Notes under the pieces: generated by a model | Seen by the model: only the letters and a program-made list of their open reading frames with translations | Told to the model about the DNA's origin: nothing | Databases searched by the model: none | Assembly (NCBI RefSeq): GCF_025943985.1 | Contig: NZ_JAPCWE010000010.1 | Location: 1-64,000 of the forward strand | Direction of reading: 5' to 3' | Length of the DNA stretch: 64,000 nucleotides | DNA from: Anaerorudis cellulosivorans | Lineage (GTDB): Bacteria; Bacteroidota; Bacteroidia; Bacteroidales; Dysgonomonadaceae | Part shown: in pieces, positions 1 to 57,876 of the stretch | Position numbering within the stretch: position 1 is the first letter of the stretch | How the letters are laid out: the number at the start of each line of letters is the position of its first letter | Made by a program: the position numbers and the translations under genes

Positions 1-361
1 TGCATTTGCAATCCATATTAGGATCACAAAGATGAGAATTCAAATCCGTTTAATCGAAAATTGTATACAACTAACTAAATTTCAAATATTTCAAAGAGCT
101 ATTGTAGATTTTAATGGGACAGCAATGAAAGCATATAATAGACAAGAAAAGCCATCAAAGCCTTATTCATTTCTTCTTTATTTGCATAATTCTCTTTAAA
201 AATGATATCCTTTTTAACTAAAGTTTAGCACTTCTTTATTTTCTGTCTTTCAAATCATTAAAGCGAAGTGCAAAACTTTAGTAATATAATAAGAAAAACA
301 TCAACGAGGTGGCGAAACTTTTAAAATATTAAATTAATAATATGTTTGACAAAAATATGTA
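1..361. other. Left-edge stretch with no convincing gene
   Basis: No recognisable gene is seen here. A reading frame is open on the plus strand from the window edge to a stop at 197-199 (65 codons, with an internal ATG at 32), but its predicted protein shows no family signature and could be chance in AT-rich DNA or the tail of a gene outside the window. The stretch also holds the inverted repeat described separately. The downstream end of the minus-strand S41 peptidase gene lies at its right border. Confidence 0.4.
217..282. repeat. Inverted repeat, 18-bp arms
   Basis: The arms at 217-234 and 265-282 are reverse complements with one mismatch and are separated by 30 bases. The repeat lies 80 bases beyond the stop of the minus-strand S41 gene. 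Neither strand shows a clear run of T after the stem, so a standard intrinsic terminator is not well supported. It could be a remnant of a small mobile element or a transcript-end structure. Confidence 0.6.
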
Positions 362-1387
362 TTATTCTTTTGATTTATTTTCGATGATAGCTCTTGCTCT
401 TTCGATAATGGTATCGATTTTTTTCTCGGCATCAGCGGGAAGCATCATCACTTTCACGTCGGGGTCTACACCGGATTCGATGTGTTCTTTTTCTGCATTA
501 AACATGGGACAAGCAGAGAAGCGTACCGACCATCCGTTAGGCAATTCCGAAGAAAAAGGTAACCCGCTTCCGCCTCCGGTTTTGTCTCCAACTATAGTAA
601 CGTTTGGTGCGTATTTCATGATGCTGACGAACTCGTTGGTGGCACTGTAACATCCTCTGTTGGTTAGCACAACCACAGGTTTTTGATATCGGATTCCTTT
701 ATAGCTATCAATATATTTTGGGTATAAGGGCGAAAAATCATCATGCCCCGGTCCTATTTTGTGAGAAATGTATCCGATAAGTGTTTTTTCATTAAAAAAA
801 CGACTGGCGATTCGTTCCACGTTTGTAAGGCTTCCTCCTCCATTATCACGTACATCAATAATCACTCCTTTGCAAATGGCCATGCGGCTTAAAATTTGCG
901 AAAGGCTCGAATTGCCAACATCGTTTGAGAAACTGCCATAATACACATAACCAATATTATCTTCCAAAATTTTATATTTCATGCCGCTTGCAATAAGATA
1001 GTCTGTTCCCAAATATTCTTCTTGAATGGTAAGATCAAAATTGGCCGGAAAGTCCTCTTGCCATTTCCAATAGCGCGACATGTCGTGAGAGGCAATCAGA
1101 TTGACGTGCCCGTCTTTCAGCTCTTCCAGCATTTTTCCCAACAGTTTGAATAGCGATTCGCTACTCATGGTATTCGTAACTCTTGGACTGTAGGCGTGGT
1201 ATACCGAATCCCAATCGATATCTTTGTGAGAAAAAAAGCAGTAGTGTCGATCCATAATAGTCCAAAGAGCCTCGAAATTGCCTCTTGGGGTGTTGTCAAA
1301 ATCCATAACCTGCACTTCACAACCCTCAATAAGACAAATGATTGAGATCATGAAAAGATGAGAAAAACGGGAACGTATTGTCTTCAT
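362..1387 (-). CDS. S41-family (C-terminal processing type) serine peptidase, lipoprotein
   Basis: A predicted 341-residue secreted serine peptidase of family S41. A hydrophobic N-terminus ends in a lipobox-like IEGC with Cys at residue 23, so it is probably a lipoprotein. The C-terminal half carries the S41 core: VIIDVRDNGGG, then GCYSATNEF holding the likely nucleophile Ser near residue 247, then VGDKTGGG. I see no clear PDZ domain between the N-terminal region and the core, as in the shorter Bacteroidetes S41 proteins. The start at 1387 puts the signal sequence directly at the N-terminus; an upstream in-frame start at 1483 would overlap rpiB and bury the signal. It is last in a minus-strand run after tkt and rpiB, 74 bases downstream of rpiB. 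Its substrate is not predictable. Confidence 0.85.
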   Translation of the reverse strand: MKTIRSRFSHLFMISIICLIEGCEVQVMDFDNTPRGNFEALWTIMDRHYCFFSHKDIDWDSVYHAYSPRVTNTMSSESLFKLLGKMLEELKDGHVNLIASHDMSRYWKWQEDFPANFDLTIQEEYLGTDYLIASGMKYKILEDNIGYVYYGSFSNDVGNSSLSQILSRMAICKGVIIDVRDNGGGSLTNVERIASRFFNEKTLIGYISHKIGPGHDDFSPLYPKYIDSYKGIRYQKPVVVLTNRGCYSATNEFVSIMKYAPNVTIVGDKTGGGSGLPFSSELPNGWSVRFSACPMFNAEKEHIESGVDPDVKVMMLPADAEKKIDTIIERARAIIENKSKE

Positions 1388-10990: not shown

Positions 10991-11194
10991 TTTTACTTTT
11001 TTTGCTGCAAATACGCAGGTATGTTTTATCTCAAATCAACCACATCCGATCTTGTTGTTCCTGCTTAGGAGCAAGCATGAAGCGGACATAATACATTGGG
11101 ATTTCACCTCCATGCCGTTCGTTTTGGTGTATTGGCATGGTTAAGCCTGTGTTTGGTAAAGAGGCTAAGATCTCATTAAAAACCTCGGCGTTGG

Positions 11195-12769
11195 TTAAAA
11201 TTCAGAATTAAAGTGAAAACGGATGTTTTTGAAATCCTGTTGTGCCATTGTCAGGATGTAATTCGATTCGGCAAGAAAAACATCCCTTCCTTCTTTGTCG
11301 TAAGCCATGTAAAGGAATTTTCGTTTTTTAAATTCTTCCAATTCTTTTTCATCGTCACTTTCTATCCAGCATGCTTTATAAAGATTGAGCGGTTCCCATC
11401 GGCATTGCGCTCCGTATTCGTGTAACAGGCGATATTGGATGACTTCGAATTGCAGTTGTCCCACTGTACCGATAATTTTTCTGCCGTTAAATTGATGAGT
11501 GAACAATTGAGCTACCCCTTCATCCATCAGTTGTTCGATTCCTTTATGCAATTGCTTTGCTTTCATGGGATCGGCATTTTCGATGTATTTGAACATCTCG
11601 GGTGAAAAACTGGGCAACCCTTTAAAATGCAGGTCTTCTCCTGCCGTGAGCGTGTCGCCGATTTTGAAATTGCCGTTGTCCGGCAGTCCGACGATATCTC
11701 CCGCATAAGCTTCGTCCACCACTTCTTTTTTCTGAGCCATGAAAGCTGTGGGTGAAGAAAATTTCATCATTCGGTTGAAACGGACATGTTTGTAATTTAC
11801 GTTTCGTTCGAATTTACCCGAACAGACTTTCACAAAGGCTATGCACGAACGATGATTGGGGTCCATATTGGCGTGAATCTTAAACACGAATCCCGTAAAA
11901 GGCTCTTCGTACGGATCGACGATACGCTCTTCGGCCTGTACCGGACGTGGCGAAGGTGCTATGTCCACAAAACAATCGAGCAACTCTTTGACACCGAAAT
12001 TGTTCAAAGCCGAACCGAAAAACACCGGTGCAAGTTTGCCTGCAAGATATTCTTCGCGATTAAATGAAGGATATACTTCGGTGATCAACATAATATCGTC
12101 GCGTAATTTTTTCGCCAAGGGATTTTCGATATGCGTTTCCAATTCGGGTGAATCCATGTCGATAGTCACCGATTCTGTAATGGTCTGCTTGCCGGGTTTA
12201 TACAGGTCGAGGCGGTTTTTGTAAAGATTATACACCCCCTTGAAGCGCTGTCCCATGTCGATAGGCCAACTCAGCGGCCGTACGCTGATATGTAGTTCTC
12301 TTTCCAGTTCGTCCAACAGATCGAAAGGGTCTTTTCCTTCGCGATCCATTTTGTTGACAAAAACCATGACCGGCGTATGGCGCATCCGACATACTTCCAT
12401 AAGCTTTCGTGTCTGCATTTCGACTCCTTTAGCTGCATCTATCACGATGATTACGCTGTCGACCGCGGTCAGTGTGCGAAAAGTATCTTCGGCAAAATCT
12501 TGGTGACCGGGTGTGTCGAGGATATTGATTTTATAGTTGTCGTATTCGAACCCCATCACTGAGGTAGCTACCGATATTCCTCGTTGTTTTTCGATTTCCA
12601 TCCAGTCCGATGTTGCCGTTTTTTTTATCTTGTTCGATTTTACGGCTCCTGCTACGTGGATAGCTCCTCCGAAAAGAAGCAATTTTTCTGTTAATGTGGT
12701 TTTCCCCGCATCGGGGTGACTGATAATAGCGAATGTTCGTCTGCGTTGTATCTCTTTTTGTAATGTCAT
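11195..12769 (-). CDS. prfC: Peptide chain release factor 3
   Basis: A 524-residue translational GTPase of the RF3 type, which releases RF1/RF2 from the ribosome after termination. The GTPase domain shows G1 ([13 protein letters not shown]), G2/switch region ([14 protein letters not shown]), G3 ([13 protein letters not shown]) and G4 ([11 protein letters not shown]). The C-terminal part ([19 protein letters not shown]) is typical of RF3. The length is that of the family. It is the last gene of the minus-strand DUF4924-rmlD-prfC set, 43 bases after rmlD. Confidence 0.97.
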
Positions 12770-54891: not shown

Positions 54892-57876
54892 ATGAAATCA
54901 GATATATCCAAATCCGTTATTAAGACGCATGACATCAGACAGTTTCAGTTTCGCGATACACCATTTGTGAAATTGATGAACAGGCGCATTTACAATATCC
55001 TGATGATTGCTTCGCGTTACGATATGTTTATTTTACAAGACGACGGTCGGGTAGAAGAGCAGATTTTCAATGAGTATGCATCGCTCAACCTTCGTTATCC
55101 GCCACTTTTTACTCAGGTAAGCACCCGAAAAGAGGTAATGAATGAGTTGAAAACCAATCGTTACGAATTGATTATTTGCATGCCGAATATGGATAACAGC
55201 GAGGTATTCGAGATGGCAAAAAACATTAAGGCCGACCATCCTCATATTCCGATTGTGGTTTTGACCCCTTTCTCTAAAAGTGTGTCTAAAACATTGGAAA
55301 AGGAAGATTTAAGCGGGATCGATTATGTTTTTAGTTGGTTGGGAGATGCCGACTTGCTGCTGGCTATCATCAAACTCATTGAGGATCGCATGAATGTAGA
55401 AAACGATGTAAAAACCGTTGGGGTACAAACCATTATGTTGGTTGAGGATTCTGTACGGTTTTATTCGTCCGAACTCTCCCTTTTATATAAGTTTGTATTG
55501 TTTGAATCGAAAGAATTTTCAAGAGAAGCCCTGAATGAGCATCAGCGTATGCTCCGCATGAGGGGAAGGCCTAAAATACTTTTGGCTCGAAGTTATGAGG
55601 AGGCGGTTGATCTTTACCGTAAGTATGGCAATAATATGCTTGGAGTTATTTCCGATATGAGTTTCAATCATGAAGGGGAGAAAGATAAATTAGCCGGAAA
55701 AAAATTAGGGGAGTGGATTCGAAATCACGACAAATACATTCCTATTATTTTGGCTTCGTCTGAAAGTGAAAACAAGAAATATGCGGTTGAAATTGATGCT
55801 TCGTTTATCGACAAAAATTCCAAAACATTTCCTTACGATCTTCGCAAAGCGATAAAGGAGAATTTCGGTTTTGGTGATTTCATCATTGTTAATCCTCACA
55901 CCCAAGAAGAAATTTTCAGAATAAAGAATCTGAAGGAATTGCAAAACACTATTCGGCAGATTCCCGACGATTCGTTATATTTTCATTTGTCGCGTAATCA
56001 TTTTTCCCGTTTTTTTTATTCGCGAGCTATGTTCCCTGTTGCAGAAATGCTGAAACGGATCGACGTTTCGGAATACGAGAGTATGGATGAGGCACGTGAG
56101 CTGATTTATGATGCCATCGTGCAGTATCGGCGCATGAAAAATACGGGTGTAGTGGCGATTTTCGACCGAGATCGGTTCGATCAGTTTTCCAATTTTGCCC
56201 GTATTGGGGAAGATTCGTTGGGCGGAAAAGGCCGTGGTTTGGCGTTTATGGGGAGCATGGTTAAAATGCACCCCGAGTTTAATGCCTATGATAATTTCCC
56301 GGTTCTGATTCCGCGTACCGTGGTGCTTTGTACGGATATCTTCGATGAATTTATGGAAACCAACCAATTGTATCCGCAGGTGATGTTGGATTTGTCTGAT
56401 GAGGAGATTTTGAAACTCTTTCTGAATGCGAAGCTTCCGGAAAGGTTGGTCAACGATTTTTTGGTGTTTTTTGATGCCATCAACGGTCCTATAGCCATTC
56501 GTTCCTCGAGTCTTCTGGAGGATTCCCGCTATCAGCCTTTTGCCGGAATTTATTCCACATATATGATTCCTTTTGTGGACGATAAGCAAGAAATGGTACG
56601 GATGATCAGCGACGGGATTAAAGCGGTATATGCTTCAGTTTTTTATAAAGACACCAAGGCTTACATGGCTGCAACCCGAAACTTTATTGATCAGGAAAAA
56701 ATGGCCATTCTTCTGCAGGAAGTGGTAGGCACACAGTATGGTTCGCATTTTTATCCGACCATTTCAGGCGTAGCGCGCTCGATCAATTATTATCCTATCG
56801 GAAACGAAAAACCGGAAGATGGGATAGTAAACATGGGCCTGGGATTGGGGAAATACATTGTGGACGGCAATGTGGGATTGCGTTTTTCCCCTTTGCATGC
56901 TTCCAACATTCTTCAATTGAGCACTTTGGAAATGGCTTTAAAAGAAACGCAGACCCGTTTTTATGCACTCGATATGAATAATGCCGTAAAAGAGTTCCCT
57001 GTTGATGATAGTTTTAATCTCCTGAAGCTGGGATTGAAAGAAGCCGAGAATGATGGGGCATTGAGGTATATTGCATCGACCTATGATCCGATGGATCAGA
57101 TTATCCGTGAGGGCTATTATCCCGGTGGACGAAAAGTCATTTCTTTTTCGCATATTCTGCAGCATGGTATGTTTCCCCTTGCCGAGATTTTGGATAATGT
57201 GTTGAAGGTGGGGCAACGTGAGATGGGACGACCGGTAGAAATCGAGTTTGCCGTTAATGTGAAGAATCAAAAGGAAGGCGCTTTTTACTTGTTGCAAATC
57301 CGCCCCATTGTCGATAGTCGCGAAATGGTGTCGGAAGATCTCTCCAAAATAGAAAAAAAAGAAATGATTCTTTATTCTGAAAGTGCTTTGGGAAATGGCA
57401 TTTCGAATGATGTTTATGATGTGGTTTATGTAAAGACGGAATCATACAATGCAGCTAATAATTCGCTGGTTGCGCGTGAGATTGAGAAACTGAACAAAAC
57501 CTTTTCCGAGAGTGATCGAAATTATATTCTCGTCGGACCCGGTCGGTGGGGTTCTTCCGATCCTTGGTTGGGAATCCCGGTTAAATGGCCCCATATCAGT
57601 CAGGCTAGGGTTATTGTGGAGTCGGGATTGGAGAATTACCGAGTGGAACCGAGTCAGGGAACCCATTTTTTTCAGAATCTCACTTCATTTGGAGTAGGGT
57701 ATTTTACCATCAATCCCTTTTTAAAAGACGGAGGTTTTTTCGACGAAGCTTTTTTGAATGCTCAACCTGCAGCATACGAAACGGATTTTATTCGGCATGT
57801 ACACTTCGATAGTTCGCTGACAATAATCATCAATGGCAAAAAGAAAACAGGAGTGGTATTAAAACCGGGAGAATAA
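54892..57876 (+). CDS. Receiver-PEP/pyruvate-binding (PPDK-N) hybrid protein
   Basis: A 994-residue cytoplasmic protein. The first receiver-like domain (about 35-165) lacks the phospho-Asp (ICMPNM where D is expected). The second (about 180-320) looks intact: VEDS acidic pair (E185/D186), D255 in ISDMS, Ser in LASSES and Lys in FIDKNS. Then comes a PEP-synthase-type ATP-grasp domain (about 435-815) with GGKGRGLAFMG, PIAIRSSSLLEDS and FYLLQIRPI. The phosphohistidine swivelling domain and PEP TIM barrel of true PEP synthases are absent; instead there is a C-terminal domain of about 170 residues with YILVGPGRWGSSDPWLG. Function unknown; it may be a signal-controlled ATP-dependent phosphotransferase acting on a separate partner. 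Confidence 0.82.
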   Translation: MKSDISKSVIKTHDIRQFQFRDTPFVKLMNRRIYNILMIASRYDMFILQDDGRVEEQIFNEYASLNLRYPPLFTQVSTRKEVMNELKTNRYELIICMPNMDNSEVFEMAKNIKADHPHIPIVVLTPFSKSVSKTLEKEDLSGIDYVFSWLGDADLLLAIIKLIEDRMNVENDVKTVGVQTIMLVEDSVRFYSSELSLLYKFVLFESKEFSREALNEHQRMLRMRGRPKILLARSYEEAVDLYRKYGNNMLGVISDMSFNHEGEKDKLAGKKLGEWIRNHDKYIPIILASSESENKKYAVEIDASFIDKNSKTFPYDLRKAIKENFGFGDFIIVNPHTQEEIFRIKNLKELQNTIRQIPDDSLYFHLSRNHFSRFFYSRAMFPVAEMLKRIDVSEYESMDEARELIYDAIVQYRRMKNTGVVAIFDRDRFDQFSNFARIGEDSLGGKGRGLAFMGSMVKMHPEFNAYDNFPVLIPRTVVLCTDIFDEFMETNQLYPQVMLDLSDEEILKLFLNAKLPERLVNDFLVFFDAINGPIAIRSSSLLEDSRYQPFAGIYSTYMIPFVDDKQEMVRMISDGIKAVYASVFYKDTKAYMAATRNFIDQEKMAILLQEVVGTQYGSHFYPTISGVARSINYYPIGNEKPEDGIVNMGLGLGKYIVDGNVGLRFSPLHASNILQLSTLEMALKETQTRFYALDMNNAVKEFPVDDSFNLLKLGLKEAENDGALRYIASTYDPMDQIIREGYYPGGRKVISFSHILQHGMFPLAEILDNVLKVGQREMGRPVEIEFAVNVKNQKEGAFYLLQIRPIVDSREMVSEDLSKIEKKEMILYSESALGNGISNDVYDVVYVKTESYNAANNSLVAREIEKLNKTFSESDRNYILVGPGRWGSSDPWLGIPVKWPHISQARVIVESGLENYRVEPSQGTHFFQNLTSFGVGYFTINPFLKDGGFFDEAFLNAQPAAYETDFIRHVHFDSSLTIIINGKKKTGVVLKPGE

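Follow-up and report, generated by a model that had tools for sequence, protein, structure and literature searches.

A receiver-bearing, PEP-synthase-like protein of Anaerorudis cellulosivorans with a probable cryptic phosphohistidine domain, and the linkage of its relatives to glutamate dehydrogenase genes

Gene and domain architecture

The window (the whole stretch of 64,000 nucleotides of Anaerorudis cellulosivorans DNA analysed here) was found to possess, on its plus strand at positions 54892-57876, an ORF for a protein of 994 amino acids which is present as a single copy in its genome. The ORF and its coordinates agree with those of an initial annotation made from the sequence alone. No described function for the protein was found in the literature, and a defence role was not indicated by PADLOC (0 hits). 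A full-length AlphaFold model was built from a 65-sequence alignment (mean pLDDT 83.5) and has receiver folds at residues 33-168 and 177-330, a helical linker, an ATP-grasp domain (about 433-808) and a C-terminal domain (825-991). Structure prediction, which had been recommended in the initial annotation, yielded two receivers, an ATP-grasp domain and a C-terminal domain resembling phosphohistidine swivelling domains. The features are as follows:

54892..57876, plus strand: protein of 994 aa with two receivers, linker, ATP-grasp and putative swivelling domain (ORF; homologues in Bacteroidales 57-76% identical over the full length)
54988..55395, plus strand: receiver 1, residues 33-168, degenerate, lacking the phosphoacceptor Asp (Response_reg hit at 75-134; receiver fold in the model; ICMPNMDN at the acceptor strand)
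55420..55881, plus strand: receiver 2, residues 177-330, with intact acid pair, Asp, Ser and Lys (invariant residues; structural matches)
55654..55656, plus strand: codon of D255, predicted receiver phosphorylation site (invariant in 65/65 homologues)
55894..56151, plus strand: helical linker, residues 335-420 (weak DUF5752 similarity)
56188..57315, plus strand: PPDK-type ATP-grasp domain, residues 433-808, catalytic motifs intact (PF01326 match; conserved residues; model)
57364..57864, plus strand: C-terminal domain, residues 825-991, proposed cryptic phosphohistidine swivelling domain (model-based structural matches)
57664..57666, plus strand: codon of H925, proposed phospho-accepting His in S-Q-G-[ST]-H-F-F (His in 134/134 motif-bearing sequences)

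The similarity of the linker to DUF5752 (PF19027) is confined to residues 343-377 and falls under the Pfam cut-off (E 5.7e-4).

Receiver domains

The Pfam Response_reg match is weak and divided over two stretches (E 2.5e-8). The initial annotation had described a degenerate receiver followed by an intact one, and both descriptions hold. Receiver 1 keeps the fold in the model and has no Asp at the acceptor position. For receiver 2 the residues had been assigned correctly, with E185, D186, D255, S289 and K308 all invariant among the 65 aligned homologues, and the full set expected of a response regulator (acid pair, Asp, Ser/Thr and Lys within a receiver fold) is present. Its model, which includes an additional helical hairpin around residues 193-225, was matched to Spo0F (6ifh, Z 14.6) and to the PorX receiver (Z 13.6). 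No histidine kinase was noticed next to the gene within the window.

PorX and other receiver-enzyme response regulators of Bacteroidota resemble the 994-aa protein in that receivers drive an enzymatic output and not DNA binding, and the PorX receivers rank among its good structural matches. The difference lies in the output, which is a PglZ-type domain in PorX and a PPDK-type ATP-grasp domain here.

ATP-grasp domain and relation to PEP-utilising enzymes

Residues 441-823 match PPDK_N (PF01326) with an E-value of 1.3e-47 (163 bits against a cut-off of 27), and the modelled domain has Z scores of about 22-24 against rifampin phosphotransferase and PEP synthase. Three architectures were found, namely full-length relatives, a shorter receiver-less form and a nucleotidyltransferase-bearing form, and each of them conserves K446 (within GGKG), R537, E543, Q609, E783, E785, Q802 and R804; in the last form the residue at E783 is Asp, as in PPDK. 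Assigned by motif and partly by hhalign, the equivalents of PPDK K22, R92, D321, E323, Q335 and R337 are K446, R537, E783, E785, Q802 and R804, all of which are conserved. Since these residues match the PPDK catalytic residues by motif, there is no indication that ATP chemistry has been lost. The PPDK-type domain of the initial annotation is thus upheld by the PF01326 match and the conserved motif residues, and the ATP-binding residues, whose loss had been named there as an argument against its reading, are retained.

A PEP/pyruvate-binding TIM barrel was not found, either as a Pfam hit or as a fold in the model, and the protein ends after the swivelling-like domain. With an intact ATP-grasp domain and no such barrel, the acceptor must differ from a pyruvate held in the same chain. 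An ordinary PEP synthase was rejected, as the barrel is missing. No rifampin-binding domain lies between the ATP-grasp and C-terminal domains, which are joined by a short linker only (residues 809-824), and the NCBIfam rph score was 18.8 against a cut-off of 999.

C-terminal domain

The C-terminal domain, used as single sequences or as a 19-member profile, has no Pfam family and no sequence relative in the PDB. PF00391 (PEP-utilizers) gave 0 hits in 19 such domains at E-values of up to 1, profile-profile comparison with phosphohistidine domains by hhalign gave a probability below 1% and was no better than controls, and Foldseek returned nothing below E 0.001 for the isolated domain. The initial annotation had left the domain unassigned, which is correct as regards sequence families; the best matches of its predicted structure, however, are phosphohistidine swivelling domains.

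Modelled alone, the domain had a pLDDT of 88.2 and a pTM of 0.88. When this model was compared by VIA-align, ranks 1-9 among the matches listed were all phosphohistidine domains, with Z scores of 5.6-6.7, which are moderate and by themselves no proof, as a Z under 8 may reflect a shared arrangement only. These included the extra (ECT) domain of pyruvate kinase (3t05; Z 6.7, 108 aligned, 3.1 Å), residues 756-867 of rifampin phosphotransferase (5fbu; Z 6.5, 112 aligned, 3.3 Å) and residues 375-510 of PPDK, its central domain (5jvn; Z 6.2, 125 aligned, 4.1 Å). The N-terminal domain of Enzyme I (Z 5.5) came after the first nine, and many other rows were the CCT/TRiC apical domain and aconitase, which share the same swivelling beta/beta/alpha fold class. 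The moderate Z of the isolated domain is strengthened by single alignments running over both the ATP-grasp and the C-terminal domain, in which residues 423..991 of the full-length model align with 3..508 of PPDK 1kbl (Z 16.2) and residues 433..993 with 8..467 of PEP synthase 2ols (Z 24.4).

Every one of the 134 distinct sequences having the flanking motifs, variant architectures included, has His at the position of H925. In both the full-length and the isolated-domain models H925 is the first residue of a helix, following S-Q-G-[ST], a place which corresponds by helix start and motif to that of the catalytic His in T-S-H-A-A of PPDK. On this evidence the domain is probably a cryptic phosphohistidine swivelling domain. 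The claim of the initial annotation that the protein is without a phosphohistidine domain is true of sequence profiles, but the model of residues 806-994 resembles such domains, and the [ST]-His in this region is invariant. The annotation had named a conserved C-terminal phospho-His domain as a finding that would contradict it, and such a domain is probably present.

The same annotation had suggested a search for a partner His-domain protein. Such a partner was rejected, as the only PF00391 match in the genome belongs to an ordinary PPDK, and seven relatives with orthologues (91-100% complete) have no PF00391 match at all.

The 994-aa protein is like PPDK and PEP synthase in its PPDK_N ATP-grasp domain with conserved catalytic residues and in the next domain in the same order, which aligns structurally with their central phosphohistidine domain. 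It differs from them in having two N-terminal receivers and neither a PEP/pyruvate TIM barrel nor a PF00391 match. Because the barrel and a recognisable PF00391 domain are missing, it is a PEP-utilising phosphotransferase variant which lies outside PPDK/PEP synthase. Rifampin phosphotransferase (RPH) is similar in the structures of its ATP-grasp (Z 24.4) and phosphohistidine (Z 6.4-6.5) domains and in its transfer to a non-pyruvate acceptor, as is proposed for the 994-aa protein, whereas the latter has no rifampin-binding domain, is receiver-controlled and is linked to glutamate dehydrogenase. Glucan, water dikinase is a dikinase which has no PEP barrel and reaches an external acceptor through a phosphohistidine relay, and as a general description the mechanism proposed for the 994-aa protein is similar in these two traits; no carbohydrate-binding domains were found in the 994-aa protein, and its neighbours are other ones.

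Linkage to glutamate dehydrogenase genes

In Bacteroides and its relatives, which are dominant in the gut, glutamate dehydrogenase (GDH) is a central enzyme of ammonia assimilation. Its control was seen in gut Bacteroides decades ago, and no assignment of that control to a protein was found in the literature.

The HMM search proposed in the initial annotation for the C-terminal domain gave no family match and did provide a distribution, the domain being found in 49 of the 296 Bacteroidota genomes searched, the window genome included. With GDH genes located by PF02812 and linkage counted in the 48 genomes other than that of the window, 67 of 82 copies were found at most 6 kb from a GDH gene, with linkage in 39 of the 48 genomes. 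The chance expectation for a GDH gene within 6 kb is about 0.7% per copy. The arrangements vary and include operonic upstream and downstream, divergent and convergent ones, often within the same operon; at some loci (L118, L119) regulator, GDH, regulator and GDH alternate. The linkage holds with at least three GDH subtypes and, together with the varied arrangements, this means that one frozen cluster does not explain it. No constant nitrogen genes besides GDH were seen in the neighbourhoods read.

The recurrent order in Bacteroides is gdhB<, POP<, gene>, gdhA<, malic enzyme<. All 69 Bacteroides genomes that are at least 98% complete carry the gene (the genus being judged from a near-identical B. 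graminisolvens copy). In three of the Bacteroides genomes (L166-L168) gdhA is immediately convergent with it, whereas in others gdhA lies kilobases from it or is not linked to it. A public record of Parabacteroides distasonis has gdhA directly divergent from a 'PEP/pyruvate-binding domain-containing protein'. From these data GDH is very probably the functional partner of the 994-aa protein, and the 994-aa-type gene is a specific candidate for GDH control. GDHs linked to the gene were also compared with those of genomes lacking it, and no clear modification site emerged; a few N-terminal positions differ (e.g., H38 and E40 in B. graminisolvens gdhA numbering) in a comparison that is confounded by phylogeny.

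Many Bacteroidia carry GDH and no 994-aa-type gene. The gene is not beside GDH in the window genome and its closest relatives. Both GDH genes of the window genome are on another contig, so the linkage has been lost there and is not universal. These two genes (L124:4862-6250 and 11070-12407, contig C5) are convergent and about 5 kb apart, with no regulator between them. The gene is followed, at 58092-64001 of the window, by a small ORF, lipoprotein-like and containing Ig-like sequence, and by a very large one. ORFs of both kinds also adjoin the orthologues at L003 and L017, so that in the lineage of the window such synteny replaces the GDH linkage.

Two copies have irregularities of their own. 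The P. distasonis copy (L205, NZ_OY725790.1) lies on a 277-kb record which is labelled a plasmid and carries ruvC and gdhA; this may be a mislabelled chromosomal fragment. In one Bacteroides genome (G403:C74:19505-22446) a TAG at query residue 780 breaks the gene close to where the ATP-grasp domain ends; the gene may be a pseudogene there or encode a split protein, or the stop may stem from an error in sequencing.

Proposed role in GDH control

The initial annotation had proposed an ATP-dependent transfer under two-component control to an unknown acceptor. The two-component input, the intact PPDK-type ATP-grasp domain and the lack of a PEP-binding barrel bear this out, the absence of a phosphohistidine domain does not stand, and the linkage in 67/82 copies with the Bacteroides synteny now makes GDH a strong candidate for the acceptor. 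A two-component-gated, ATP-driven phosphohistidine phosphotransferase with GDH as its partner is given an even chance. In such a mechanism, D255 of receiver 2 would report a signal for nitrogen or energy, and the ATP-grasp domain, when permitted, would autophosphorylate H925 on the swivelling domain, as in PPDK/PEP synthase. As there is no PEP/pyruvate barrel, the swivelling domain would then hand on its phosphoryl group to an acceptor protein, for which GDH is the likeliest candidate, and this transfer would set GDH activity. Phosphoryl transfer to GDH, taken by itself, is judged to fall just short of an even chance. If the scheme is true, PEP-synthase chemistry extends to the control of a protein, and two-component signalling is joined to a metabolic enzyme by covalent modification and not by transcription.

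Gene linkage by itself gives no chemistry, and it would fit equally well with an ATP-dependent allosteric or assembly factor which binds GDH and changes its conformation or oligomer state through ATP or the receiver, with no phosphohistidine chemistry. The only moderate structural similarity of the proposed His domain also favours such a factor, but the retention of the ATP-grasp catalytic residues and of H925 across three strongly diverged architectures suggests chemistry, and this explanation is considered rather unlikely. A direct transfer of a phosphoryl or pyrophosphoryl group from ATP to the acceptor, without a His intermediate, as in the initial annotation, would account for the lack of a phosphohistidine domain at the sequence level; it is very improbable, since the modelled C-terminus resembles phosphohistidine domains in structure and its [ST]-His does not vary.

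PPDK, PEP synthase, rifampin phosphotransferase and glucan, water dikinase all have non-protein acceptors. This precedent, and the occurrence of malic enzyme and GDH as neighbours, would suit a metabolic enzyme in which H925 passes its phosphoryl group to a small molecule of glutamate/2-oxoglutarate metabolism, the GDH linkage being a pathway association. The protein, however, consists of receivers, helical linker, ATP-grasp and C-terminal domain only, with no acceptor-binding domain, and its copies pair with individual GDH genes, alternating operons included, more like cognate regulators; such an enzyme is held to be unlikely. It is also quite improbable that the gene merely shares a nitrogen regulon with GDH while its protein has an unrelated target. 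The missing linkage in the window genome and several lineages speaks for this, but linkage recurs across orientations and GDH subtypes, and no further nitrogen gene is constant in the regions read.

The phosphohistidine mechanism may also be set against older physiology. A 3-kb segment downstream of gdhA reportedly restored GDH activity in trans in E. coli in the work of Baggio and Morrison in 1996, and Yamamoto et al. are said to have described a reversible inactivation of B. fragilis GDH in 1987. The gene in the syntenic species is 3 kb long and convergent with gdhA, and would fit this segment. If the reported restoration holds, activation of GDH is the favoured direction of the effect. The title of the 1996 work, as listed in PMC4539542, points to one or more trans-acting genes downstream of gdhA in B. 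thetaiotaomicron (Baggio and Morrison, 1996). For B. fragilis, PMC4539542 gives inhibition at high organic nitrogen (Abrahams and Abratt, 1998). The 994-aa-type gene would fit the trans-acting gene(s) of B. thetaiotaomicron.

Sister architectures

A sister protein of 1060 aa also adjoins GDH (L112:6805-9987, L113:6960-10157, L115:7230-10409, L117:3846-7025). It has a different N-terminal region, PPDK_N and a C-terminal domain of the same type, in which the GTH motif is invariant; in addition it carries a nucleotidyltransferase domain (NTP_transf_2). The widest form of the proposal, that a two-component-gated, PEP-synthase-derived phosphohistidine relay reversibly phosphorylates GDH and controls ammonia assimilation throughout Bacteroidota, with sister forms (580-aa; nucleotidyltransferase) replacing the receivers, is offered tentatively and with the balance of probability against it. 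The receiver-less 580-aa form often adjoins the 1060-aa sister, and the two are possibly another GDH control system.
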